From IMG/VR virus record IMGVR_UViG_3300033148_004038, positions 1 through 23,894 of that record: a DNA stretch of 23,894 nucleotides. One strand, 5' to 3'. A program made the position numbers and the translations under genes. Positions 1,767 through 10,154 of this stretch are shown here, piece after piece. The notes beneath the pieces were generated by a model. It did no database searches and was not told the DNA's origin. It saw nothing but the letters and a program-made list of their open reading frames with translations. How positions within the stretch are numbered: position 1 is the stretch's first letter; the number at the start of each line of letters is the position of its first letter. The stretch comes from a virus.

Positions 1767-1981
1767 TCAAATTGGAATTTCAATTTAATTCATGCGACAA
1801 ATATTACTTAGTCGAAGTGTCACACACTGATTCGATTGATGATAAGATTGCATGGTGCAAAGCACAAGAATCAGACGGTAAATTTTATCACTGGAATGAG
1901 AGCTTTGCACCGTATACTACTTGTCCATGGTGGTTTGAATATGAAGTAGATGCATTACTATTTAGGTTGAGTTGGGCATGA
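1763..1981 (+). CDS. Small WWFE-type protein
   Basis: This 72-residue protein ends with PWWFEYEVDALLFRLSWA. The gene at 5162-5380 encodes a second protein with the same plan: a central A-W-C or K-W-C, an F-Y-H block, then W-W-F-E-x-x-x-D-A-x-x-F-x-L near the C-terminus. I recall small proteins with this ending in other aquatic T4-like phages, but know no function. The pattern of a strand, WWF-E and a short helix suggests a compact alpha/beta domain. The start overlaps the previous stop as ATGA and its own stop overlaps the next start in the same way. Confidence 0.75.
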   Translation: MIKLEFQFNSCDKYYLVEVSHTDSIDDKIAWCKAQESDGKFYHWNESFAPYTTCPWWFEYEVDALLFRLSWA

Positions 1982-2163
1982 TATACGCACGAGATAAAGC
2001 TGACACGAGATATTGGATGTCGTTTGATCGGCCGCTAAATATCACACCACTGGATTTTCATATCTACGATTTTAAAATTGATGATAAGATATACACACAG
2101 TATTCTGAGTTGTTCCAACATGCATTTGATAAGGAATTAACATGGCAAAGAATGAAAGCGTGA
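1978..2163 (+). CDS. Small protein with a C-terminal family A motif
   Basis: This gene encodes 61 residues of unknown function. I chose the ATG at 1978, which forms an ATGA overlap with the previous gene, over an upstream TTG at 1972. The last eleven residues are DKELTWQRMKA, matching the family A motif (D-K-E-L-V-W-D-R-L-K) found at the N-terminus of other array proteins. The preceding part is rich in aromatic and acidic residues (YDFKIDDKIY). The DNA of the motif also contains the ATG at 2142 in another frame. Confidence 0.65.
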   Translation: MIYARDKADTRYWMSFDRPLNITPLDFHIYDFKIDDKIYTQYSELFQHAFDKELTWQRMKA

Positions 2164-2327
2164 TGACGCACGAACAGACGCAACTTAAAATCATTATGAT
2201 TTTAAAGTACGGAAATCTCAATGAAGCATTTTGGTCGGGTGATAAATTTATCCCTGCAGAAAATAGAATACTTGAAATTAATTTAATGGAAACTACAAGG
2301 CACACAAATGTCAAAATCAAAGACTGA
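2163..2327 (+). CDS. Family B mini-domain protein
   Basis: This gene encodes 54 residues. The frame also has an ATG at 2142, but the ATG at 2163 shares its A with the previous stop (TGATG), the commoner coupling in this array. The segment IMILKYGNLNEAFW (residues 11-24) is the family B core, though the K-to-W distance is nine rather than eleven. The second half, with N-x-M-E-T-T-R, lacks the usual second helix. It overlaps the next gene by 20 bases. Function unknown. Confidence 0.6.
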   Translation: MTHEQTQLKIIMILKYGNLNEAFWSGDKFIPAENRILEINLMETTRHTNVKIKD

Positions 2328-2505
2328 AGTAATGTTAAAATTAAAGTACGGCACTATTTCCAATGCCTTCAGGTATTGGTTTAATACACCCAGCGATAAA
2401 GAGCACGGGCTAACTGCTGATGAAGTGCAATTCGTTAATAAATGGGATGATAAAATGAGGGCCGCAGGTAAAGGGTTCAAGATAGAGATGTATGACCCAC
2501 TCTGA
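2308..2505 (+). CDS. Family B mini-domain protein
   Basis: This 65-residue protein is a clear family B member: LKLKYGTISNAFRYWF (residues 10-25, K13 and W24), a short linker, then a helix beginning G-L-T-A-D-E-V with a downstream W. The predicted form is helix-turn-helix of about 45 residues with a conserved K-Y-G-T turn. It overlaps the neighbouring genes by 20 and 14 bases. The function is unknown; no DNA-binding signature is convincing. Confidence 0.7.
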   Translation: MSKSKTEVMLKLKYGTISNAFRYWFNTPSDKEHGLTADEVQFVNKWDDKMRAAGKGFKIEMYDPL

Positions 2506-2716
2506 TCCAAACGTATTTGATTATATTAAATACTATTCGTTACCGTTTGACCAAAAGTTAGTATTGGTACGCAATGGTAAGCACCTTGAGGTCTTTAAAG
2601 ATGATTCTGACCCAACGATCTCAGAAGTTGCTAAAACGGTAATAGCGCACATGGGTAAAAAAGGTGCTAAGTTGCCTATCCATGTTACATTAAAATCGGA
2701 CTTAGATAATTGGTAG
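2492..2716 (+). CDS. Small protein, divergent family B
   Basis: This gene encodes 74 residues. The N-terminal part, VFDYIKYYSLPFDQKLVL, loosely fits the family B core (hydrophobic strand, K-Y, turn), but the W is missing. The later part, P-T-I-S-E-V-A-K-T-V-I-A-H-M, could be the second helix. It starts inside the end of the previous gene and ends three bases before the next ATG. Its link to family B is tentative and its function unknown. Confidence 0.6.
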   Translation: MTHSDPNVFDYIKYYSLPFDQKLVLVRNGKHLEVFKDDSDPTISEVAKTVIAHMGKKGAKLPIHVTLKSDLDNW

Positions 2717-2718
2717 AC

Positions 2719-3051
2719 ATGACAGACGCCGACGTACAATTATTTCTAACTTTGAAATTCTCTAGTATGCCAGAGTTAGTAGATGCCCTGCGATATGCGG
2801 TAGGTGTTGGCCCGTTACATTCTGCAACAGATGCCGCAGTTAACGAAGTACTTAAAGAATGGGCAATACAAGGTTGTCCAGAGAAAATTGTAATACCTGA
2901 CAACAAAGCATCTCTTTTCTTATGTTTTAAATTTGGCACAGTTAAACAAGCATATGAATATTGGGTAAGTGTAGCGCCAGGAGAGCCACACGGCCTCTGT
3001 GATGCTGAATTAACAATAGTAATGGACTACGTTGCACCTCCCCGAAGTTAA
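2719..3051 (+). CDS. Tandem family B protein (two mini-domains)
   Basis: This gene encodes 110 residues from the ATG at 2719 (an upstream TTG at 2710 is less likely). It holds two family B units in tandem: residues 6-50 with LFLTLKFSSM, where the W position is L24, and residues 64-107 with LFLCFKFGTVKQAYEYW (K71, W82), each followed by a second acidic helix. A tandem copy shows that the unit is a real, separately inherited domain. It is the last gene before promoter P2, and its 3' end is followed by an inverted repeat. Function unknown. Confidence 0.75.
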   Translation: MTDADVQLFLTLKFSSMPELVDALRYAVGVGPLHSATDAAVNEVLKEWAIQGCPEKIVIPDNKASLFLCFKFGTVKQAYEYWVSVAPGEPHGLCDAELTIVMDYVAPPRS

Positions 3052-3059
3052 CAAAAAAT

Positions 3060-3089
3060 TTGACTTTTGCTTGACAAGTGTGCTACGCT
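3060..3089 (+). promoter_or_regulatory. Sigma70-type promoter P2
   Basis: TTGACT (3060-3065), an 18-bp spacer, then TACGCT (3084-3089) with the TGC extended -10, identical in -10 block and spacing to P1. A second TTGACA at 3071-3076 is too close to serve this -10. Confidence 0.6.
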
Positions 3090-3110
3090 GTTAACGCGAA
3101 AAGCGTAGCA
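3081..3110 (+). repeat. Perfect 9-bp inverted repeat over the P2 -10
   Basis: TGCTACGCT at 3081-3089 is repeated inverted as AGCGTAGCA at 3102-3110 with a 12-bp centre. The left arm is the -10 block itself, so the repeat spans the expected start point. It could be an operator, or a hairpin in transcripts reading through from P1. There is no T-run, so it is not a simple terminator. Confidence 0.55.
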
Positions 3111-3127
3111 AACGGAAGGTAGGTGAA

Positions 3128-3319
3128 ATGGACGACGAACAGTTCGAAACCTTTTTTATTATTAAATATGTCACTATGGATGCGGCCATGTTAAACTGGC
3201 TAACTAATCCCATTGAATTTACAGCCGAAGAGTCAGAGTTCTTTGACCGATATACAAAACGCAGGTTCCCTAATTTAAATCTAATCAGTTCTACCGATCC
3301 GTTTGACAAACCGGAATAA
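3128..3319 (+). CDS. Family B mini-domain protein
   Basis: This 63-residue protein is nearly all family B: TFFIIKYVTMDAAMLNW (residues 8-24, K13 and W24), then F-T-A-E-E-S-E-F-F-D as the second helix and a basic KRRFP. The ATG has a good AAGGTAGG ribosome binding site and is the first gene after P2. Its final codons contain the -35 of P3. Function unknown. Confidence 0.75.
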   Translation: MDDEQFETFFIIKYVTMDAAMLNWLTNPIEFTAEESEFFDRYTKRRFPNLNLISSTDPFDKPE

Positions 3320-3331
3320 GTGTGCTATCGT
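3303..3331 (+). promoter_or_regulatory. Sigma70-type promoter P3
   Basis: A perfect TTGACA (3303-3308), 17-bp spacer, TATCGT (3326-3331) with TGC before it. The -35 lies in the last codons of the previous gene. GTGTGC and GCGCAC flank the region as an imperfect inverted repeat, echoing P2. Confidence 0.6.
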
Positions 3332-3370
3332 AACCGCTGTAAGCGCACTCAAATCAAGAGCGGGATAAAC

Positions 3371-3610
3371 ATGACAACGGATCAGGACCATATAGTCACA
3401 ATGCTACTCATTAAGCATGGCGGTTTTGCAAACCTGGTTGATCTGTGGCTGTATGCAAATGAGAACCTATCTAAAGATGAAATTGAAGCGGTTAGCCAAT
3501 TCTTAGAAGATGATCGCCAAGCTAAACCGCATGACGCAAAACTCAAAAACAGCGACGAGTATCCCTACATAACATTCAAATTGAGACTCGAACGTGATAC
3601 AGATTCTTAG
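3371..3610 (+). CDS. Family B mini-domain protein
   Basis: This gene encodes 79 residues from the ATG at 3371. The frame stays open upstream to 3320, but that part overlaps promoter P3. The core is TMLLIKHGGFANLVDLW (K15, W26), followed by N-L-S-K-D-E-I-E-A-V as the second helix. A charged tail of about 30 residues follows, ending LRLERDTDS. A GAGCGGG purine run precedes the start. It overlaps the next gene by 17 bases. Function unknown. Confidence 0.7.
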   Translation: MTTDQDHIVTMLLIKHGGFANLVDLWLYANENLSKDEIEAVSQFLEDDRQAKPHDAKLKNSDEYPYITFKLRLERDTDS

Positions 3611-3824
3611 ACGCTTCCTTCCTACCAAACGCCCAGATATTTCGCAGGATGATTACGATCAAGCTAAAACATTTCTGTTACTCAAATTTGGTACAATGAA
3701 CCAAGCAGCCAGTACGTGGTCACATTCACAACACAAAGAAGATTACACCGTTGCCCAAGCTGCCGTTATTAAGGTTTGGATTAAGGATCGAATGGGATTA
3801 ACGCACAGCACAGGCCCGAAATAA
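3594..3824 (+). CDS. Family B mini-domain protein with basic N-terminal extension
   Basis: This gene encodes 76 residues, probably from the GTG at 3594; there is no ATG before the conserved core. A basic N-terminal extension (ILRRFLPTKRP) precedes the family B unit TFLLLKFGTMNQAASTW (K31, W42) and a second helix with Y-T-V-A-Q-A-A-V-I. Its stop lies directly before the -35 of P4. Function unknown. Confidence 0.7.
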   Translation: MIQILRRFLPTKRPDISQDDYDQAKTFLLLKFGTMNQAASTWSHSQHKEDYTVAQAAVIKVWIKDRMGLTHSTGPK

Positions 3825-3826
3825 AG

Positions 3827-3855
3827 TTGCATTTTAGGCTATCCCTTGTTATACT
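3827..3855 (+). promoter_or_regulatory. Sigma70-type promoter P4
   Basis: TTGCAT (3827-3832), 17-bp spacer, TATACT (3850-3855). This is the best -10 of the four and lies 32 bases before the next start. No terminator is seen between here and 11693, so this promoter may serve the whole distal array. Confidence 0.7.
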
Positions 3856-3887
3856 TCGTGTATTACTAATGGATCTGGGTACTGATT

Positions 3888-4193
3888 ATGACGGCCAAAA
3901 AGAACAAAATTAGAGCATTGCAGCATGAGCTGACTGAGAAGAATCAAATGATTCAGAATCTGCAGACAACTATTAGAATGCGCGATCGCGCAATGGAAGA
4001 AATAAAGCTGAAAATAGACGATCAGCTCGGACGCATTTATTGGCAATGCGAGCAAATCACAAAACACTTCACCAAAGAATTTACCTGGATGGAATTAACA
4101 GACGATCCAGATTCTCAGTTCAAATATTTAAAGCGATCACTTAAATCTATAAAACACATGGCAGAATTGCACGGAGACAAATCGGATGAATAA
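3888..4193 (+). CDS. Small coiled-coil protein of unknown function
   Basis: This gene encodes 101 residues. The N-terminal 45 residues (KIRALQHELTEKNQMIQNLQ onward) have heptad-like spacing of L, I and M and many charges, as in a coiled coil. The C-terminal half, with H-F-T-K-E-F-T-W-M-E-L and a basic helix, is not recognised. It is the first gene after P4 and has a weak ribosome binding site. It overlaps the next gene by eight bases. It carries neither array motif. Confidence 0.65.
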   Translation: MTAKKNKIRALQHELTEKNQMIQNLQTTIRMRDRAMEEIKLKIDDQLGRIYWQCEQITKHFTKEFTWMELTDDPDSQFKYLKRSLKSIKHMAELHGDKSDE

Positions 4194-4512
4194 AGACCAG
4201 TTTCAGTTAATACAAATAATCGAACAATGCGATGCTGAGAAAGCAGAGTTTCTAAAGCGTATTGTATTACGAGCAAGTCAAGGTTATGATTATGCAGTTA
4301 AGACAGACGCCCAAAGTCTACACGGCGAACTTGCACTAGTGATTGTCACTGAAGGACAAGGTACGTCGTACGGCAAGAAAAATCTCAGCAGAACAGAACA
4401 AAGAGGTGGCGACTTGTACACAGGCATCCACCATAAGTTACGTGAACCAAAAACTATTAATGATTTTGATTGGTCGGGTTATGACAAAGAAACAAGTCTC
4501 TACAACGAATAA
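4186..4512 (+). CDS. Small protein of unknown function
   Basis: This gene encodes 108 residues. The N-terminal part is a helical stretch (QLIQIIEQCDAEKAEFLKRI), then a predicted strand ALVIVTEGQG, a polar middle and an acidic, aromatic C-terminus. I recognise no family. The start overlaps the previous stop. The end overlaps by 32 bases the next gene, whose own frame is open back to 4343. That makes the exact extent of each gene a little uncertain. Confidence 0.55.
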   Translation: MNKDQFQLIQIIEQCDAEKAEFLKRIVLRASQGYDYAVKTDAQSLHGELALVIVTEGQGTSYGKKNLSRTEQRGGDLYTGIHHKLREPKTINDFDWSGYDKETSLYNE

Positions 4513-4666
4513 AGAATCACTAAAGTTGTATTTGATTTTAAAGTACGGGTCGGAACGAAAACTATTCGGCATGTGGTTTGCTCATCAGATTAATCCTGAT
4601 ACAGTAACACCGCAAGGCGATATGAAATTGATTGGGGAATTATTTCATCATGAGTACAGAGACTGA
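4481..4666 (+). CDS. Family B mini-domain protein
   Basis: This gene encodes 61 residues from the ATG at 4481, chosen because it places the family B core near the N-terminus as in its paralogues. The frame itself is open from 4343. The core is LYLILKYGSERKLFGMW (K21, W32), followed by N-P-D-T-V-T-P-Q-G-D-M as the second helix. It is the last family B member before family A takes over. It overlaps the next gene by 17 bases. Function unknown. Confidence 0.7.
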   Translation: MTKKQVSTTNKESLKLYLILKYGSERKLFGMWFAHQINPDTVTPQGDMKLIGELFHHEYRD

Positions 4667-4832
4667 CAAAGAAAAAGTCTGGAAACGACTGAAGCATGTT
4701 GCTACACCGTTTCTTGCTGACATGGATGTTAACAGTTTGTACCCATGGCAAGCTGATGTAATGGTAGGTCTTGAACGAATGGAAGGAGACGCTAAGAATG
4801 TCACGATCAAAGTTCTTAAAAACAGACGATAA
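4650..4832 (+). CDS. Small protein with N-terminal family A motif
   Basis: This gene encodes 60 residues from the ATG at 4650 (an in-frame TTG at 4632 is less likely). Residues 6-17, DKEKVWKRLKHV, are the family A motif. The body contains SLYPWQADVM, similar in style to a Y-P-W-Q loop, and a basic end. It overlaps the next gene by 35 bases. No family is recognised for the body. Confidence 0.65.
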   Translation: MSTETDKEKVWKRLKHVATPFLADMDVNSLYPWQADVMVGLERMEGDAKNVTIKVLKNRR

Positions 4833-5016
4833 AGAAGTAATGTGGAAGAAGTTGTCCACGTTGCCTGTTAGTCAAGGCGAAAAAGATATAATGTACTTCC
4901 GGCAGACGCTAGGTAGAGCTTTCCGCGCAGGATTCAAGAAAGGTGAAGTATCTGTGATTGCAGCCCAGTCTAACAAAGGCAAGTCTATGTTGTTTGATCT
5001 TGAAGCTAGGCTGTAA
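4798..5016 (+). CDS. Family A protein carrying a Walker-A-like fragment
   Basis: This gene encodes 72 residues from the ATG at 4798, which has an AAGGAG ribosome binding site. The family A motif DDKEVMWKKL lies at residues 10-19. The second half, FKKGEVSVIAAQSNKGKSML (about residues 45-65), looks like the strand and P-loop of DnaB- or RecA-type ATPases, with A in place of the first G of GxxxxGKS/T. The rest of an ATPase (Walker B and beyond) is missing; the next gene starts three bases after the stop. It may be a remnant of a helicase-like gene or a small nucleotide- or helicase-binding mimic. Function unknown. Confidence 0.6.
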   Translation: MSRSKFLKTDDKEVMWKKLSTLPVSQGEKDIMYFRQTLGRAFRAGFKKGEVSVIAAQSNKGKSMLFDLEARL

Positions 5017-5018
5017 AA

Positions 5019-5165
5019 ATGGATAAAGATAAAAAGAAAGTTTGGAAGAAGTTAACACATGTTCCAACGTATGTTAAGCCGGGCGTTACGGTTCGCACAG
5101 TTGATTTTTCAGTTGTGATTAAACCCGGCAGTACTGATTTTACTGTGCTACCAATTAAGAAATGA
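5019..5165 (+). CDS. Very small protein with N-terminal family A motif
   Basis: This gene encodes only 48 residues. It begins MDKDKKKVWKKLTHV, the family A motif, then P-T-Y-V-K-P-G and two predicted beta strands (VRTVDFSVVIKPG, DFTVLPIKK). The ATG is two bases after the previous stop and its own stop overlaps the next start as ATGA, which supports it as real. It shows that the array contains family A genes shorter than usual gene-calling limits. Confidence 0.65.
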   Translation: MDKDKKKVWKKLTHVPTYVKPGVTVRTVDFSVVIKPGSTDFTVLPIKK

Positions 5166-5380
5166 AATGGTGCAACCCGCCTAAAGAACATAGAGCACAG
5201 TGGGCCACTGTGTCACCACCGGGGCGTGGTTATATTAAGGAAGCACATAAGTGGTGCATTGAACAAACGGGCACTACCTGTTTTTATCACCACTACACTA
5301 ACACACGTTGGTGGTTTGAGGATAAAGCAGATGCGGTTATGTTTGCATTAATGTTTACTGGTAAAGGCAATGAACAATAA
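5162..5380 (+). CDS. Small WWFE-type protein (second copy)
   Basis: This 72-residue protein is a paralogue of the one at 1763-1981, of equal length. It has H-K-W-C, C-F-Y-H-H and R-W-W-F-E-D-K-A-D-A-V-M-F-A-L in the same order, but a quite different N-terminus (MKWCNPPKEHRAQWA). Four Cys/His-rich positions might bind a metal, but no clear pattern supports this. It is joined by ATGA to the previous gene and overlaps the next by 11 bases. Function unknown. Confidence 0.75.
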   Translation: MKWCNPPKEHRAQWATVSPPGRGYIKEAHKWCIEQTGTTCFYHHYTNTRWWFEDKADAVMFALMFTGKGNEQ

Positions 5381-5627
5381 AGAATTAGTATGGGATAGAT
5401 TAAAGAACGGGATACTACCGCCCTTAAATGCAGTACGTTTTCATGGTAATGGTATAGCAACTAATTTCAACAGCGCATGGATAGCAGACGGTGTGTACAA
5501 GGTTACAGTTAACGACGTTGCACAATCGGTATACAGAGATTTTCAGATAGAGAACAACGATGTAATTTTTCGCCAGCCACCACCCGAGTATGCTAAAATT
5601 CGTGTTGAAGTGTATCCACATGAATGA
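5370..5627 (+). CDS. Small protein with N-terminal family A motif
   Basis: This 85-residue protein starts MNNKELVWDRLKNGI, the canonical family A motif, then P-P-L-N. The body looks beta-rich (SAWIADGVYKVTVNDV, then RDFQIENNDVIF and RVEVYPHE), perhaps a small beta domain. The DNA encoding the motif matches that of the next gene at 28 of 29 bases (5377-5405 with 5627-5655), a sign of recent duplication or conversion. Function unknown. Confidence 0.75.
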   Translation: MNNKELVWDRLKNGILPPLNAVRFHGNGIATNFNSAWIADGVYKVTVNDVAQSVYRDFQIENNDVIFRQPPPEYAKIRVEVYPHE

Positions 5628-5943
5628 TAAAGAACTAGTATGGGATAGATTAAAGCATGGTGTAAAACCCATTGACTTAGATGAGATGTTATCAAGAGAT
5701 CTTGAAGAGTTAAGGAAAGGTTATATTGAGATGCAGAAAGAAATGGAGAAAACACTAAATGAAGAACGTAAACAAGTTCATACGGGAACTATCATCCCAG
5801 GACAAAAAGACGCTATCACAAAAAGCCTTAAAGGTAGCAGAGGAAGCGGGAGAGCTTGCGAAAGTGGTGCTGCCATTCGACAACGCAAGCGGGACTATAC
5901 ACAGATTTATAGACAAAAAGCGTATACTAGAAGAGGTAGTTGA
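5620..5943 (+). CDS. Family A protein, reading 185 bases into the MazG gene
   Basis: From the ATG at 5620 the protein starts MNDKELVWDRLKHGV, then an acidic helical part (DEMLSRDLEELRKGYIEMQK). After about residue 46 the frame continues over the 5' end of the MazG gene in another frame, giving an unstructured basic tail with no hydrophobic core. This looks like loss of a stop codon rather than a real domain, so the useful protein is probably the first 45-50 residues. The start overlaps the previous stop by eight bases. Confidence 0.6.
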   Translation: MNDKELVWDRLKHGVKPIDLDEMLSRDLEELRKGYIEMQKEMEKTLNEERKQVHTGTIIPGQKDAITKSLKGSRGSGRACESGAAIRQRKRDYTQIYRQKAYTRRGS

Positions 5944-6718
5944 CGTACATTTAACAGCTATTTCTATTGCGTATAGCTTAGGCTTTACTGACGAAGAAAT
6001 TGAAGATATGATTCTGCATAAGGCTAAGAAATGGGCCGACATACAAAAGGCAGAAGCAAAAGTACAAGGTAAGATCCCATATGAGATTCATATTACTGTT
6101 GAGGTAGCTGAATCAAATGATGTGTTTAGTGATCATTGTAGAACGTTAGATGTCAAACCAATTGTTTTAGCATTACAGAAAAACGATACCTCTATTAGAG
6201 ATGTCATGACGTCATCAGTTCATATGGGTAATAACAGAAGTGCTTACGAAGAAATGAAACGCATATCAAATGGGCTTTGGATGCAAGGTTACGAAGTAGT
6301 ACGTGAAAAGATTGAAACAGTTCCATGGCAACCAGCAGCAACAACAGCAAAGTACGGTAACTTGAAGATGCCAGAAGATTGTTACTTTGAAACACACATT
6401 GGGGTTAACTTAGAAACTAGTCAACCGGACCGTAAGAAAGCATTGCAGGATATAGCAGATTATTTCAACGCGCACATGTCTCGTAATGCATTTAAAATGC
6501 ACGACGATGGTACATACATGCAAATGATAACGTTCAGGAAGTACGAAGGAACATTTGAATCATTTGAAGGCGAAGCTAATACATTAAATGGAATGATCAT
6601 CTTGGAAGGCTTCGAAGTTGAAAAACGGGTTACAGAGTTTTCGATATACGATACAAAAGTCAGCCACGATGCAGCATGGTTAACAAAGGAACCGGCTAAG
6701 GAAGATGTTCAACTTTAA
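5759..6718 (+). CDS. MazG-like NTP pyrophosphohydrolase with a duplicated C-terminal domain
   Basis: The 319-residue protein begins with an all-alpha MazG-like domain (residues 1-100). E28-E29-x-x-E32 (EEAGE) and E58-E59-x-x-D62 (EEVVD) are the metal-binding pairs expected for this superfamily, and a K-A-K-K-W segment lies at 88-92. Such enzymes hydrolyse nucleoside triphosphates to monophosphates, and in phages may act on the nucleotide pool or alarmones. Residues 107-308 hold two similar units: the first from YEIHITVEV to a P-W, the second from YFETHIGVN to a D-A-A-W. Both have a strand with E-x-H, a helix, and a G-[YF]-E-V strand. I do not recognise this domain. A TAA lies immediately before the ATG, which fixes the start. 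It overlaps the next gene by 14 bases. Confidence 0.75.
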   Translation: MKNVNKFIRELSSQDKKTLSQKALKVAEEAGELAKVVLPFDNASGTIHRFIDKKRILEEVVDVHLTAISIAYSLGFTDEEIEDMILHKAKKWADIQKAEAKVQGKIPYEIHITVEVAESNDVFSDHCRTLDVKPIVLALQKNDTSIRDVMTSSVHMGNNRSAYEEMKRISNGLWMQGYEVVREKIETVPWQPAATTAKYGNLKMPEDCYFETHIGVNLETSQPDRKKALQDIADYFNAHMSRNAFKMHDDGTYMQMITFRKYEGTFESFEGEANTLNGMIILEGFEVEKRVTEFSIYDTKVSHDAAWLTKEPAKEDVQL

Positions 6719-6962
6719 CGAATTTTGCAAAACAAAAAAGTGCCCAAATTATATTGTGTACGAACTGCAGGCCCGCGCATGTCATACATGCGACTTATAT
6801 GGATTTACATTTGACATTACTGTATATCCCGAAACGTGTATACACTTAGCAGAAATCAAAGAAGTAGCGATTGATGCAAAGACAAAAGATAACATGTGGA
6901 AGAAATTAAATAAAATAAAGGAAGAGAAGAAAGAGAATGATATTTCCAAAAGAGTTTTTTGA
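6705..6962 (+). CDS. Cys-rich small protein with C-terminal family A motif
   Basis: This gene encodes 85 residues. The pattern K-x-C-P-N-Y-I (C13), C26-x-x-C29, then G-F-T-F-D-I-T-V-Y-P-E-T-C45-I-H47 suggests a zinc-ribbon-like knot. The same order of blocks occurs in the protein at 7805-8125. After it, residues 60-71 (TKDNMWKKLNKI) are a family A motif, here C-terminal and followed by a charged tail. Zinc binding is inference. It overlaps both neighbours (14 and 26 bases). Confidence 0.7.
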   Translation: MFNFNEFCKTKKCPNYIVYELQARACHTCDLYGFTFDITVYPETCIHLAEIKEVAIDAKTKDNMWKKLNKIKEEKKENDISKRVF

Positions 6963-7287
6963 AAAAATAGAATACTTTGAACATTCCATGCATCATAAAG
7001 CTGGAACTCAAATATTCGACAAGTTTACTATTCACTTTAAAGCATGGTGGAGACCTAGACGGAAAATCTTAATCAAGCGGAACGTTACTGATTACGATAA
7101 AGATACTGGGGTGTTCACGCACAATTCTACTCCCGGGTCAGCCGATCTGTACAATCAGTTAAATGGTTGGGCAACACAAACACACGATGAAAAGCTAGAT
7201 AGTGTTAAGAATAAGTACGTTAAAGATGAAAACAATGATAATGTGTTAGTATTAAAACCAAAGCCTAAGGATTTAGACGATGAGTGA
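6937..7287 (+). CDS. Small protein of unknown function
   Basis: This gene encodes 116 residues. The N-terminal half has F-T-I-H-F-K-A-W-W-R-P-R-R-K-I-L-I-K (about residues 30-47), aromatic and basic, which could bind nucleic acid. The middle has Y-D-K-D-T-G-V-F-T-H, and the C-terminus is acidic (KPKPKDLDDE). I recognise no family. A GAGAAAGAGA purine run precedes the ATG. The stop overlaps the next start by eight bases. Confidence 0.65.
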   Translation: MIFPKEFFEKIEYFEHSMHHKAGTQIFDKFTIHFKAWWRPRRKILIKRNVTDYDKDTGVFTHNSTPGSADLYNQLNGWATQTHDEKLDSVKNKYVKDENNDNVLVLKPKPKDLDDE

Positions 7288-7546
7288 ATGGATAGAACCA
7301 AGACAGTACGCACTAGTAAAGTTTGATTTTAGTTCGCTGCCAAAGGAATATCACCGGGGTTATCCGTTTTCGGCCAATCATCGTTACATATACGTAGGTG
7401 AGATACCTAACATGGAAGGTCATTGTATCGTAATGGACGAGAAAGGTAAAATCTATACCGGGTATCATACAGAGAACTTTGTTGAACTTACAGAAGACGA
7501 AATGGACAATGATGAATACATGCCGGTTGGATTTCTTTCATTATGA
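7280..7546 (+). CDS. Small beta-rich phage protein of unknown function
   Basis: This 88-residue protein looks like a small beta barrel: YALVKFDF, YIYVGEIPNMEGHCIVMD, then G-K-I-Y-T-G-Y-H-T-E-N-F-V-E-L-T-E-D-E. Similar G-Y-H-T-E-N-F-V-E-L-T-E-D-E endings occur, as I recall, in hypothetical proteins of other T4-like phages. The strand-turn pattern would fit an SH3- or KOW-like fold. No motif from the array is present. Its stop overlaps the next start as ATGA. Confidence 0.7.
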   Translation: MSEWIEPRQYALVKFDFSSLPKEYHRGYPFSANHRYIYVGEIPNMEGHCIVMDEKGKIYTGYHTENFVELTEDEMDNDEYMPVGFLSL

Positions 7547-7812
7547 AAGAGACAGCATTACAAGTACATCAACGAAAAATTCGTAACGGTCTTCGCAAGC
7601 AGGCTGAAGCGTACCAACGTGACAAGGAAAAGATCTGGGATCGCCTTAAAGAAGTTAAACCACCTCCGCGAACACTAAAAGCCAATTGGACGATTGAGGA
7701 AGCAGTAGACATTCAATCATTGCATAGTTTTGATTTAGAAAAAGAATTAGCAGATGAATTGGCAGCCGAGTTAACGAAAGAAATACTATTCACGGGTACT
7801 AGAAATGAGTAA
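7543..7812 (+). CDS. Family A protein with a capsid-helix-like C-terminus
   Basis: This gene encodes 89 residues. The family A motif RDKEKIWDRLKEVKPPP sits at residues 26-42, after a basic helical N-terminus. The C-terminal segment, D-L-E-K-E-L-A-D-E-L-A-A-E-L-T-K-E-I-L (64-82), is an amphipathic acidic helix similar in plan to LAQEITAEIDQEIL of the capsid protein and closer still to that of the protein at 9220-9414. It is joined to its neighbours by ATGA (upstream) and an eight-base overlap (downstream). Function unknown. Confidence 0.7.
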   Translation: MKETALQVHQRKIRNGLRKQAEAYQRDKEKIWDRLKEVKPPPRTLKANWTIEEAVDIQSLHSFDLEKELADELAAELTKEILFTGTRNE

Positions 7813-8125
7813 AATATCCTTAGACGAAATGTGCCGCGAAGTGTTTAAGTGCAAGAACTACATTGAGTGGGAGTACGAATACGTCCTTGAAGACTATAAT
7901 ATGCGGCACGAGTCTAGCATGATTTGTGTGTCATGCACTGAGGTAGGACAGTCTTACAACATTGATGAATATCCAGATAATTGTCCGCATAAAAAAGAAC
8001 TAGACAAATACATTGCTAAACGAGAAAAAGAAAATACAGCGTTTGAATTGAAATGTGAACAAGAAAAGATGTGGTTAAAATTGGGGGAGGACGAAGACAA
8101 TTGGAACAAAGCAAAGATGTTCTGA
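7805..8125 (+). CDS. Cys-rich small protein with C-terminal family A-like motif
   Basis: This 106-residue protein is a paralogue of the one at 6705-6962: K-C16-K-N-Y-I-E-W, C41-x-x-C44, G-Q-S-Y-N-I-D-E-Y-P-D-N-C60-P-H62 in the same order. C10 and C16 with C41, C44 and C60 could hold one zinc ion. At residues 85-93, EQEKMWLKL is a degenerate family A motif, again C-terminal to the Cys domain. So the fusion of the two parts predates the duplication. Function unknown. Confidence 0.72.
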   Translation: MSKISLDEMCREVFKCKNYIEWEYEYVLEDYNMRHESSMICVSCTEVGQSYNIDEYPDNCPHKKELDKYIAKREKENTAFELKCEQEKMWLKLGEDEDNWNKAKMF

Positions 8126-8505
8126 CTAAGTCTCAAAGGGAAGTGTGGGGAACACTTAAGGATCCATGCTGGGGTAAAATAAGGAATAATGGAGATCTTG
8201 TTGTACATATAGCACAGTCAGAAAAACAAAACAGAGTCACAGATCGGCTGGGCGATTATATGTTTAGCCTTGCTACAAAATTATTTGAAACTAGAACCTT
8301 AACGCAAGGATACATACATATCAAGGATGATGTAATAGCTGATGCAGTCAGGCAAATGATTTCATCTTATAGTCGATTTGATGTGACTAGGTGTAATAAT
8401 GCATGTTCCTACTTAACAATTGTTACGTTGGGTGCCTTTGCACAATCGGTAAGCAGGGAAAATAAACAACAAGCGATAAAAAAATGCCTAGCAGAACTGA
8501 TATAG
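8071..8505 (+). CDS. gp55-like late sigma factor homologue
   Basis: This gene encodes up to 144 residues from the ATG at 8071; a TTG at 8101 after a GGGGGAGG purine run is an alternative start. The C-terminal 90 residues follow the gp55 pattern of T4-like phages: D58-R-L-G, G-Y-x-H-I-K-D-D-V-I-A-D-A-V (80-93), R-F-D (102-104), C-N-N-A-C-S-Y-L-T (108-116) and A-F-A-Q-S-V-S-R-E-N-K-Q-Q (122-134). In standard gp55 proteins I recall K-N-P-F-A-Y-F-T and K-K-E-K-K-Q at these places. gp55 directs host RNA polymerase to TATAAATA late promoters, and such promoters are present downstream. The N-terminus has a weak family A motif (KSQREVWGTLK, 20-30). It could be the functional sigma or a diverged paralogue. 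Confidence 0.62.
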   Translation: MVKIGGGRRQLEQSKDVLTKSQREVWGTLKDPCWGKIRNNGDLVVHIAQSEKQNRVTDRLGDYMFSLATKLFETRTLTQGYIHIKDDVIADAVRQMISSYSRFDVTRCNNACSYLTIVTLGAFAQSVSRENKQQAIKKCLAELI

Positions 8506-8669
8506 TAGATGACAAGGAACTAGTCTGGGACCGGTTAAAGCATGGTATTAAAGAAGAGGTATTCGTTGTCAATGGATTTTCTAACCCTATTATAGGCGCG
8601 ACATATTTTAATATGCTTGATAAGAAGATGTACGTGTATGATGGCGAAGCCTGGATTGTAATAGTATGA
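8484..8669 (+). CDS. Family A motif joined to a fibre-like segment
   Basis: This gene encodes 61 residues. The family A motif DDKELVWDRLKHGI lies at residues 9-22, with the DNA close to that at 5620. The C-terminal part, G-A-T-Y-F-N-M-L-D-K-K-M-Y-V-Y-D-G-E-A-W (38-57), matches the common phage fibre and structural element G-x-x-Y-F-N...Y-x-Y-D-G-x-x-W, also seen as Y-E-Y-F-D-G-T-S-W in the large fibre at 13871-18676. It overlaps the previous gene by 22 bases and the next by an ATGA. Function unknown. Confidence 0.68.
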   Translation: MPSRTDIVDDKELVWDRLKHGIKEEVFVVNGFSNPIIGATYFNMLDKKMYVYDGEAWIVIV

Positions 8670-8962
8670 ACACACTTATACTAATTGCAGCATTAACCGG
8701 CCATACTTATATGAGTACCGATAACTTCACCGAGTTAGAATCTATGTGTTATCAGAATGCAATGATTGGATATGACTCAGTAATTAATAGTCGTGTAGGT
8801 GTAACTCCTGAACATGCAATACGATTAACAGACAATAAAGAAATTAGAAATTTAATTTGGAATGCCTATTTGTGGACAGCATCGCCACACGAATACGCAA
8901 TTAAGACGTTCACGGCGTGTTTACAAACTAATGATAAATATATACTAAAATTAAAAGGATAA
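8666..8962 (+). CDS. Small protein with possible signal peptide
   Basis: This gene encodes 98 residues. The N-terminus, MNTLILIAALTGHTYM, is short and hydrophobic and could be an export signal, though it lacks a basic n-region. Two Cys (about residues 28 and 85) could pair if the protein is exported. The rest, with T-P-E-H-A-I-R-L-T-D and L-I-W-N-A-Y-L-W, is mostly helical. I recognise no family. A periplasmic role is inference. The next gene follows four bases after the stop. Confidence 0.6.
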   Translation: MNTLILIAALTGHTYMSTDNFTELESMCYQNAMIGYDSVINSRVGVTPEHAIRLTDNKEIRNLIWNAYLWTASPHEYAIKTFTACLQTNDKYILKLKG

Positions 8963-8966
8963 AAAA

Positions 8967-9293
8967 GTGGAACACATTATTATCATCGGCAAGACAATCG
9001 ATGGTGCAGTATTTAGACCTAGGAACTGGACTACCCGCATTGCGGTTTCGGTTTTTGGAAAGAACAAAAGATTACAATATCATAAACACATTAGCCCGGT
9101 CTGGGTTGATAGCGAAAACGTTGCAGGATTACGAGTAAACAAAGTATTGCAAACAGAAGAGCCATTATTGTATAATCATTTAATGGGGTTTGCTAACAGC
9201 AACAACTTGGCAATAGATTATGGCAAAGAAATTATCAAAGAAAAAGACAGAAGTGTGGGATCGTTTAAAGAACGGGATACCGCCACAGCGTAG
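8967..9293 (+). CDS. DUF3579-like protein
   Basis: This gene encodes 108 residues from a GTG at 8967 with an AAAAGGA ribosome binding site. The pattern I-x-G-K-T-x-D-G-A-V-F-R-P-R-N-W-T-T-R-I, F-G-K-N-K-R-L-Q-Y, I-S-P-V-W, and L-M-G-F-A-N-S-N-N-L-A resembles DUF3579, a family I recall mainly from betaproteobacteria (consensus F-R-P-S-D-W-A-E-R and F-L-M-x-F-A-x-D-N-x-L). Its function is unknown. The last 25 residues overlap the next gene in another frame and go beyond the usual family end, so they may be read-through. If the family call holds, it hints at gene uptake from the host. Confidence 0.58.
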   Translation: MEHIIIIGKTIDGAVFRPRNWTTRIAVSVFGKNKRLQYHKHISPVWVDSENVAGLRVNKVLQTEEPLLYNHLMGFANSNNLAIDYGKEIIKEKDRSVGSFKERDTATA

Positions 9294-9414
9294 CGGCACT
9301 GAGATCATTGAAGATATGATCGCAACTCAACTAGCTAAAGAAATCAGAACCGAAATTGATAATGAGATACTTGGCGGTCTGGTCAAAGCGTATCACGAGG
9401 TAAGCAAAAAGTGA
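9220..9414 (+). CDS. Family A motif joined to a capsid-helix-like segment
   Basis: This gene encodes 64 residues. A lysine-rich start leads into TEVWDRLKNGIPPQ (10-23), the family A motif. Residues 38-51, LAKEIRTEIDNEIL, match LAQEITAEIDQEIL of the capsid protein at 10 of 14 positions. The encoding DNA matches at 29 of 42. It begins 74 bases inside the DUF3579-like gene and ends in a GTGA overlap with the IscA-like gene. It may be a capsid-binding or capsid-mimicking peptide; that is inference. Confidence 0.68.
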   Translation: MAKKLSKKKTEVWDRLKNGIPPQRSGTEIIEDMIATQLAKEIRTEIDNEILGGLVKAYHEVSKK

Positions 9415-9728
9415 ACTTAACAGAAGCAGCAGAAGAAAAAGTAATTGAACTAATCAAACACGAAACCGACGCCATTGCGTTACGTATTGGAGTTGTTGGT
9501 GGGGGTTGCAGCGGGTTTAACTATGCATTTGGATTCGCATCTAAAATTGAAGATGGCGACATTGTAGTAAATGATTCAGATGCTATTGTAGTTGTTGACC
9601 CGATGAGCTTTCAGTACCTAGCCGATGCCACAATTGATTATACTAAAAACATCGAAGGCGAACGCTTTGTAATATCTAATCCAAGCGCGACAACCACATG
9701 CGGTTGCGGAACAAGTTTTAGCGTATAA
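9411..9728 (+). CDS. A-type iron-sulfur carrier protein (IscA/ErpA/HesB family)
   Basis: This 105-residue protein has the three Cys of the A-type carriers in the expected places: C33 in G-G-G-C-S-G-F and C97-G-C99 in the C-terminal T-C-G-C-G-T-S-F. Length and spacing match bacterial IscA/ErpA. Such proteins accept Fe-S clusters from scaffolds and pass them to target enzymes in the cytoplasm. The GTG start overlaps the previous stop as GTGA. The gene precedes an IscU scaffold by 12 bases. IscA and ErpA cannot be told apart here. All key residues are kept, so it is likely active. Confidence 0.92.
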   Translation: MNLTEAAEEKVIELIKHETDAIALRIGVVGGGCSGFNYAFGFASKIEDGDIVVNDSDAIVVVDPMSFQYLADATIDYTKNIEGERFVISNPSATTTCGCGTSFSV

Positions 9729-9740
9729 GGAGAGACAAAT

Positions 9741-10154
9741 ATGGCATACAGCGATAAAGTATTAGACCATTACGAAAATCCACGTAACGTGGGCAAGATG
9801 GACGCTGACGATCCAACTGTTGGCACTGGGATGGTCGGAGCACCAGCTTGTGGTGACGTTGTAAGACTACAAATTAAAGTTAATAACGAAGGCATAATCG
9901 AAGATGCAGTATTTAAAACATACGGCTGCGGTTCTGCTATTGCTACTAGTTCATTAATGACTGAGTGGCTTAAAGGCAAAACAGTAGAAGAAGCTAAGAA
10001 AATTAAAAATGTAGAGCTTGCCGAAGAGTTAGCTTTACCGCCAGTGAAAATACATTGTTCTGTATTAGCAGAAGATGCGATCAAAGCTGCGATAGATGAC
10101 TTCCAAGGTAAATCAGCAGATAACCCTTGTGCATGTAACCCGCCCGAAGAATAA
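9741..10154 (+). CDS. iscU: IscU-type iron-sulfur cluster scaffold
   Basis: This 137-residue protein is a near full-length IscU. It keeps C37 and D39 (G-A-P-A-C-G-D), C63 (Y-G-C-G-S-A-I-A), and H105-C106 after L-P-P-V-K (99-103), the sequence bound by the chaperone HscA. IscU builds [2Fe-2S] clusters with sulfur from IscS. No IscS, ferredoxin or HscA/B gene is in the window, so the host would have to supply them. The C-terminus adds a short N-P-C-A-C tail with two extra Cys. A GGAG ribosome binding site lies in the gap after the IscA-like gene. The two form one transcription unit with the array. Confidence 0.93.
   Translation: MAYSDKVLDHYENPRNVGKMDADDPTVGTGMVGAPACGDVVRLQIKVNNEGIIEDAVFKTYGCGSAIATSSLMTEWLKGKTVEEAKKIKNVELAEELALPPVKIHCSVLAEDAIKAAIDDFQGKSADNPCACNPPEE

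Follow-up and report, generated by a model that had tools for sequence, protein, structure and literature searches.

A cluster of small genes with one shared peptide

The window, that is, the whole stretch of DNA analysed here, is a complete IMG/VR record of 23.9 kb, and its first position lies within the major capsid gene, gp23, of a T4-like phage of giant size. The encoded capsid protein is 78% identical to its counterpart in an isolate, Sinorhizobium phage Phosso (469 kb; host S. meliloti), and some 90% identical to the products of many aquatic metagenome contigs; no match was returned by a Megablast search of the window against phages. Between gp23 and a cluster of small genes on the plus strand lie opposite-strand ORFs and a bidirectional terminator, a 10-bp perfect stem with a T-run (653-676). 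The first-pass annotation had reported a short motif in twelve small genes, and all twelve (12/12) do carry it. This motif A, hereafter the tag, spans roughly 10 residues with the consensus [DEK]-K-E-x-[VIM]-W-x-[RK]-L-[KS]. The corresponding regular expression matched 13 of the 258 ORFs of the window, 12 of these on the coding strand, as compared with 0.17 matching ORFs on average, and never more than two, in 300 residue shuffles.

As had also been stated, the tag is N-terminal in most of these genes, internal in one (7543) and C-terminal in three (1978, 6705 and 7805). One of the named copies is weak, the C-terminal variant DKELTWQRMKA* (2128-2157) of the small gene 1978-2163, whose architecture matches that of the L007 and L094 proteins ending in MWEKLxx and VWEKLSD. 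An additional weak copy, TKEFTWMELT (4071-4100), was found inside gene 3888-4193, which encodes a small coiled-coil protein and whose orthologues in L094 and G031 retain the tag (FSKDIMWSKLG, FNKELAWMALC). Gene 1569-1766 ends in a variant of the motif that lacks the tryptophan.

The tryptophan is otherwise fixed, and the conserved leucine is written with many different codons. When copies were compared within genomes, the leucine codons differed in 114 of the 159 pairs with identical residues; most copies therefore appear to be old and conserved as protein, rather than recent DNA copies. The reported match of two copies at 28 of 29 bases is correct for 5370 and 5620, an exceptional pair, and the recent spread of copies that had been deduced from it is not borne out for most of them. 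The same synonymous variation rules out a DNA-level element such as a promoter or recombination site, and selection, as judged from the codons, is acting on the protein. A protein of G006 (L092) ending in EKTKMWDTLKSMPPP was weighed as a possible origin of the tag and rejected; we treat it as a coincidence or a distant lead, since the tag-bearing genomes showed no member of its family. L087-L090 and most matches to the pattern RKIxNGxRKQ were attributed to chance.

A first profile, built from the window copies and one L007 copy only, matched 3 of the 16 related contigs and phages in which it was searched. It then recovered nine copies in G015 (250 kb) and 12 in G031 (344 kb), two giant T4-like contigs. 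Our set for enrichment comprised 8,244 ORFs from the six frames of nine contigs of related genomes; from these, a broader profile retrieved small ORFs only, part of them its own seeds. Most of the G015 and G031 copies sit together in a single syntenic cluster located between gp23 and the equivalent of window gene 10187. Its gene order has been reshuffled between genomes, and orthologous fusions have been kept in three genomes, with diverged sequences and retained signature residues. No motif A was detected in Atu_ph07.

Segments of hallmark proteins attached to the tag

Three regions of the capsid protein gp23 (spine helix, N-terminal and C-terminal) are matched by tagged pieces. The clearest in the window is gene 7543-7812, in which an RKIxNGxRKQ extension and the tag (7621-7650) precede a spine-helix segment (7675-7788) matching phrog_138 (1.8e-8), Pfam Gp23 (33.1 bits, cut-off 24.4) and the gp23 of the clade (E 6.6e-9). 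Spine-helix pieces were also found in relatives, at G031:256677 (Pfam Gp23, 5.4e-12), at G032:17096 (4.6e-9) and at G015:156721, about 145 kb from gp23. In gene 9220-9414 the tag (9241-9270) is followed by the second half of the same helix (9307-9381); its matches are weak (55% identity over 22 aa with its own gp23, E 0.03; gp23 profile, iE 0.023), and so are those of its orthologues in G015 and G031. N-terminal pieces occur at G031:256994 (5.8e-6), G032:16930 (3e-4) and L094:7433 (Pfam, 1.2e-8), the tag of the last having F for W. Two N-terminal pieces align to residues ~90-131 of T4 gp23, the Gol region, and a third tagged piece covers the second half of this segment. Gol consists of 29 residues and is the most conserved part of gp23 (PMC3014915). 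The C-terminal pieces, recognised by 'YCPYIPL', are each weak singly (L094:6781 and G033/G034).

The gp23 profile of the clade selected 13 small ORFs among the 8,244 at iE <0.05; 11 of the 13 carry motif A and a twelfth has a degenerate, W-to-F tag. The overlap between tag and gp23 match has a hypergeometric probability of 1.5e-24, a figure inflated by orthology, as orthologues are not independent. The fusion of the tag to gp23 is not a matter of chance. A gp23 fragment with no recognised tag is present at G017:1099-1278. Matches are confined to segments of 16-55 residues, far from the full length of an HK97-type gp23. The gp23-helix pieces keep the residue at 59 of 110 positions conserved between T4 and this clade versus 30 of 133 variable positions (p 6e-7), as expected if mimicry has been maintained.

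A segment of the late sigma factor gp55 is also among the cargo. Gene 8071-8505 combines a tag (8131-8160) with a truncated gp55-like domain (8194-8502) which, together with its orthologues, matches phrog_234 at 4e-14 to 9e-22 (4.4e-14 for 8071 itself). Its AF2 model superposes on T4 gp55 in 7d7c_F (TM 0.63/0.66, rmsd 1.8 A), and both profile and model agree with a sigma-70 region 2 fold. The likeness to gp55 stops there: the match and the ORF end at profile position ~120-126 of 181, the C-terminal part, with which gp55 binds the sliding clamp, is missing, and these tagged pieces, truncated after region 2, stand apart from the full-length sigma genes present elsewhere in G015 and G031. All five sigma-fragment ORFs carry motif A (iE up to 0.01; two come from nearly identical contigs). 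The sole clear sheath-fragment ORF, G015:71300, carries it too, fused to the C-terminal domain of the tail sheath protein gp18 (phrog_10581, 9e-12; Pfam Phage_sheath_1C, 7.7e-5). Fusion of the tag to pieces of gp55, of gp18 and of three gp23 regions is thus shown for this clade.

Two further assignments are supported by rank and orthology, not by E-value alone. In gene 4798-5016, the tag (4828-4857) precedes a putative gp41/DnaB Walker-A segment, GFKKGEVSVIAAQSNKGKSMLF (4930-4995). Its G031 orthologue matches the DnaB-like helicase family phrog_19 (5.3e-5), and 4798 and two orthologues take the first three places among small ORFs with a P-loop profile of their own gp41 (iE 0.06-0.095, the next at 7.6). 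In gene 4650-4832, the tag (4665-4694) is followed by DMDVNSLYP (4716-4763), resembling motif A of the DNA polymerase gp43. The orthologues L094:6945 and G031:260112-260567(-) retain D-[IV]-x-S-[LF]-Y-P, and the three proteins are among the top five non-polymerase ORFs of the 8,244 for a gp43 motif-A profile. The L094 copy matches its own polymerase at a blastp E of 0.018, and a profile of the three pieces found no polymerase among PDB sequences; taken singly, the gp43 assignment is weak.

Tail-fibre proteins are less certain parents. The possible fibre domain (5433-5615) behind the tag (5376-5405) of gene 5370-5627 is suggested by a weak match of the L094 orthologue to phrog_11431, a virion structural protein (0.0087). 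The fibre-like segment (8580-8663) behind the tag (8511-8540) of gene 8484-8669 matches phrog_8309 (5.9e-4) and the tail-fibre family phrog_38058 (0.0066), and its G031 orthologue matches a tail fibre at 0.018. Both assignments stay weak because profiles of the phages' own fibres did not recover these tails. No parent was recognised for the short tail of gene 5019-5165 (tag 5028-5057), for the helical tail of gene 5620-5943 (tag 5626-5655), or for the Cys-rich domains of two genes with C-terminal tags seen in alignments, 6705-6962 (domain 6708-6857, tag 6882-6911; orthologues L094:7135 and G031:257765-258034(-)) and 7805-8125 (domain 7814-8002, tag 8057-8086). An AF2 model of the 6705 domain (pLDDT 82) had no match in the PDB. 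The attached parts had been described as unrelated to one another; this still applies to the Cys-rich members and some tails, and many of the others correspond to pieces of T4-type hallmark proteins. Judging from these similarities, most of the cargo derives its sequence features from hallmark proteins that the phage itself encodes.

Other tags and expression context

Phosso and G013 (374 kb) have no motif A, and the same gp23 segments are found there on other C-terminal tags. The Gol-region segment of G013 (Pfam Gp23, 28.8 bits, cut-off 24.4) belongs to a cluster of about 28 small proteins ending in '..DA..F.LRW[AS]'. Phosso gp170 contains a C-terminal gp23 segment (25.8 bits) and its own C-terminus resembles that of the G013 cluster; the Phosso ORF 182169-182855 contains a Gol-region segment (37.5 bits) and has the terminal sequence 'NPHLKDQFDKFQMLRKL'. 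Additional Gol segments are seldom seen: among some 2,480 gp23-bearing phage records, the segment was located at 2,502 places in 2,485 records. The phenomenon therefore seems confined to phages of this kind.

The T4-type late promoter TATAAATA is present in the window only before the fibre genes (11028 and 13834), as is also the case in G031, and a search of the window found none in the cluster. Its frequency in the window is no higher than chance, and its support comes from spacing, 29-39 bases ahead of structural genes. Because of this distribution, of the terminator and of the opposite-strand ORFs, the cluster probably lies outside the late gp23 operon.

Possible roles of the tagged fragments

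Each gene would thus specify a small protein of two parts, a portable tag and a brief mimic of a signature stretch from a conserved phage protein. A portable peptide with one partner remains the simplest reading of the tag. This keeps the general form of the docking or targeting peptide proposed in the first-pass annotation, the motif being short, portable, retained in relatives and conserved at the protein level. T4 internal proteins are a known case of many small proteins with one shared short capsid-targeting peptide, and offer a precedent for a motif that would send diverse cargo to the prohead or another phage hub, the resemblance to core proteins being secondary. The likeness is limited to the sharing of one short targeting-like peptide by many small proteins; here the tag is not always N-terminal, being C-terminal in 1978, 6705, 7805 and their orthologues, and the cargo consists of core-protein pieces. 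A gp21-type cleavage site, (L/I)-x-E within 25 residues after the motif, follows it in only 5 of the 12 genes, the cluster has no late promoter and it is separated from gp23. The prohead version therefore finds no support. Position independence would suit targeting in general, yet hallmark-protein fragments are far over-represented as cargo, and we regard this explanation as improbable.

Several pieces have only 16-50 residues and cannot fold like their parents, so recognition fits better than enzymatic function. It was previously established that Lit exclusion is triggered through Gol of gp23, and that Gol by itself is recognised as a short peptide (PMC3014915). Two of the tagged pieces cover this very segment and a third its second half; in T4, however, Gol lies within an intact gp23 and triggers defence, whereas here it is encoded by a separate, tagged gene. 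Among other sensors, CapRel recognises the capsid protein and Avs the terminase or portal (PMC9712102), the class of proteins imitated here, although these are host-side sensors; our search of the open-access literature brought up no corresponding decoy built by a phage from tagged fragments. We tentatively prefer, at less than even confidence, to see the tagged pieces as decoys that would occupy host immune sensors directed at conserved phage proteins, because short pieces can be recognised instead of their parents and bacterial sensors do recognise conserved phage proteins. In this scheme each segment would vie with its genuine counterpart for the factor that recognises it, all pieces would be led by the tag to one shared partner, and expression outside the late gp23 operon could allow decoys to precede the real proteins. 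The wider proposal of a counter-immune system, in which a library of imitations of a giant T4-like phage's own most conserved proteins, on exchangeable tags, feeds decoys to sensors of hallmark proteins, is slightly less probable. Lit, CapRel and Avs serve as analogies. The Cys-rich members and the several tails without recognised parent do not fit decoys well, nor does the untagged gp23 fragment of G017. Since conserved segments are found most easily, the bias towards signature segments may be partly a detection effect.

Next in our order of preference, and rather unlikely, the pieces would be dominant-negative poisons of co-infecting rival phages: those from capsid helix, sheath C-terminus, sigma-2, helicase P-loop and polymerase would each jam the matching assembly of a competitor, and the tag would recruit them to a complex or a protease. 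Alternatively, they would regulate machines of the phage itself. Every parent identified forms oligomers or binds partners, the gp55 piece is predicted to keep the sigma-2 fold yet ends without the C-terminal part, and the sheath piece is equally near to Rhizobium phage sheaths (55 bits) and to those of its own clade (54 bits). Poisons would nevertheless have to spare the phage's own proteins, and the pieces resemble their own clade; those from the polymerase and around 'YCPYIPL' are also too short to block an enzyme. Last, alongside prohead or hub targeting and with equally little credence, we place debris of gene birth, with recombination joining the tag as a start module to nearby gene pieces of little function. 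The position of the cluster between gp23 and fibre genes and its reshuffled order are in keeping with such an origin. Debris would hardly persist as orthologous fusions in three genomes with signature residues kept despite divergence, and its sources would include distant genes (gp55, gp43, gp41); moreover, tagged gp23 and sheath pieces are found 60-150 kb from gp23.

Our literature search, limited to open-access papers, and a jumbo-phage review (PMC7824862) gave no counterpart of tagged core-protein fragments. If the pieces are decoys, the imitated segments would amount to a catalogue, written by the phage, of the targets of bacterial immune sensors, including sensors not yet known (for polymerase, helicase, sheath and sigma factor). 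If instead they act by poisoning rivals, peptides that inhibit capsid, sheath, helicase and sigma function would already be at hand. With either reading, many 'hypothetical' small proteins of jumbo phages become testable, and the isolate Phosso has analogous genes.

Further shared motifs in the window and its relatives

A second motif, FLxLKYGSxxxA..W (family B), is common to many small proteins in the window at 2308-3824 and 4343-4666. Family B is also kept downstream of gp23 in the related loci L007 and L094 and in the 344 kb relative G031. Many small proteins likewise have in common the C-terminal motif [WF]xF..E.DA..F.L[RK]W, found in the window genes at 1763-1981 and 5162-5380 and repeated in about 28 copies in a block of the 374 kb contig G013 (L193, 4.7-11.5 kb). 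A gp23 Gol-region segment, a UvsX-like P-loop stretch and a weak gp23 helix are each carried by one member of this block.

Another C-terminal motif, NPALKDAWEKYQxxLKL, is borne by otherwise unrelated small proteins of the 250 kb relative G015 (L126, 104.0-105.9 kb and 211.7-212.9 kb) and of Sinorhizobium phage Phosso (L191, 4.2-5.9 kb). At the N-terminus, MIKIDWxxF...WFGWxW begins approximately nine small proteins in the related contigs G033 and G034 (L181 and L182, 1.7-5.4 kb), where they adjoin tagged gp55 and gp23 pieces.

A gp23 segment in Phosso

The Phosso ORF at 182169-182855 (PV764938.1) contains a gp23 Gol-region segment that is absent from the annotation, in which the gene starts at 182439. 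The true start probably lies further upstream, taking in this segment.

Iron-sulphur and SLOG genes

The phage carries two iron-sulphur genes, encoding an IscA-like protein (window 9411-9728; Pfam Fe-S_biosyn, 5.8e-15) and IscU/NifU-N (9741-10154; 3.8e-52). A YspA-like SLOG (YAcAr) nucleotide-binding protein is encoded on the minus strand at 968-1318.
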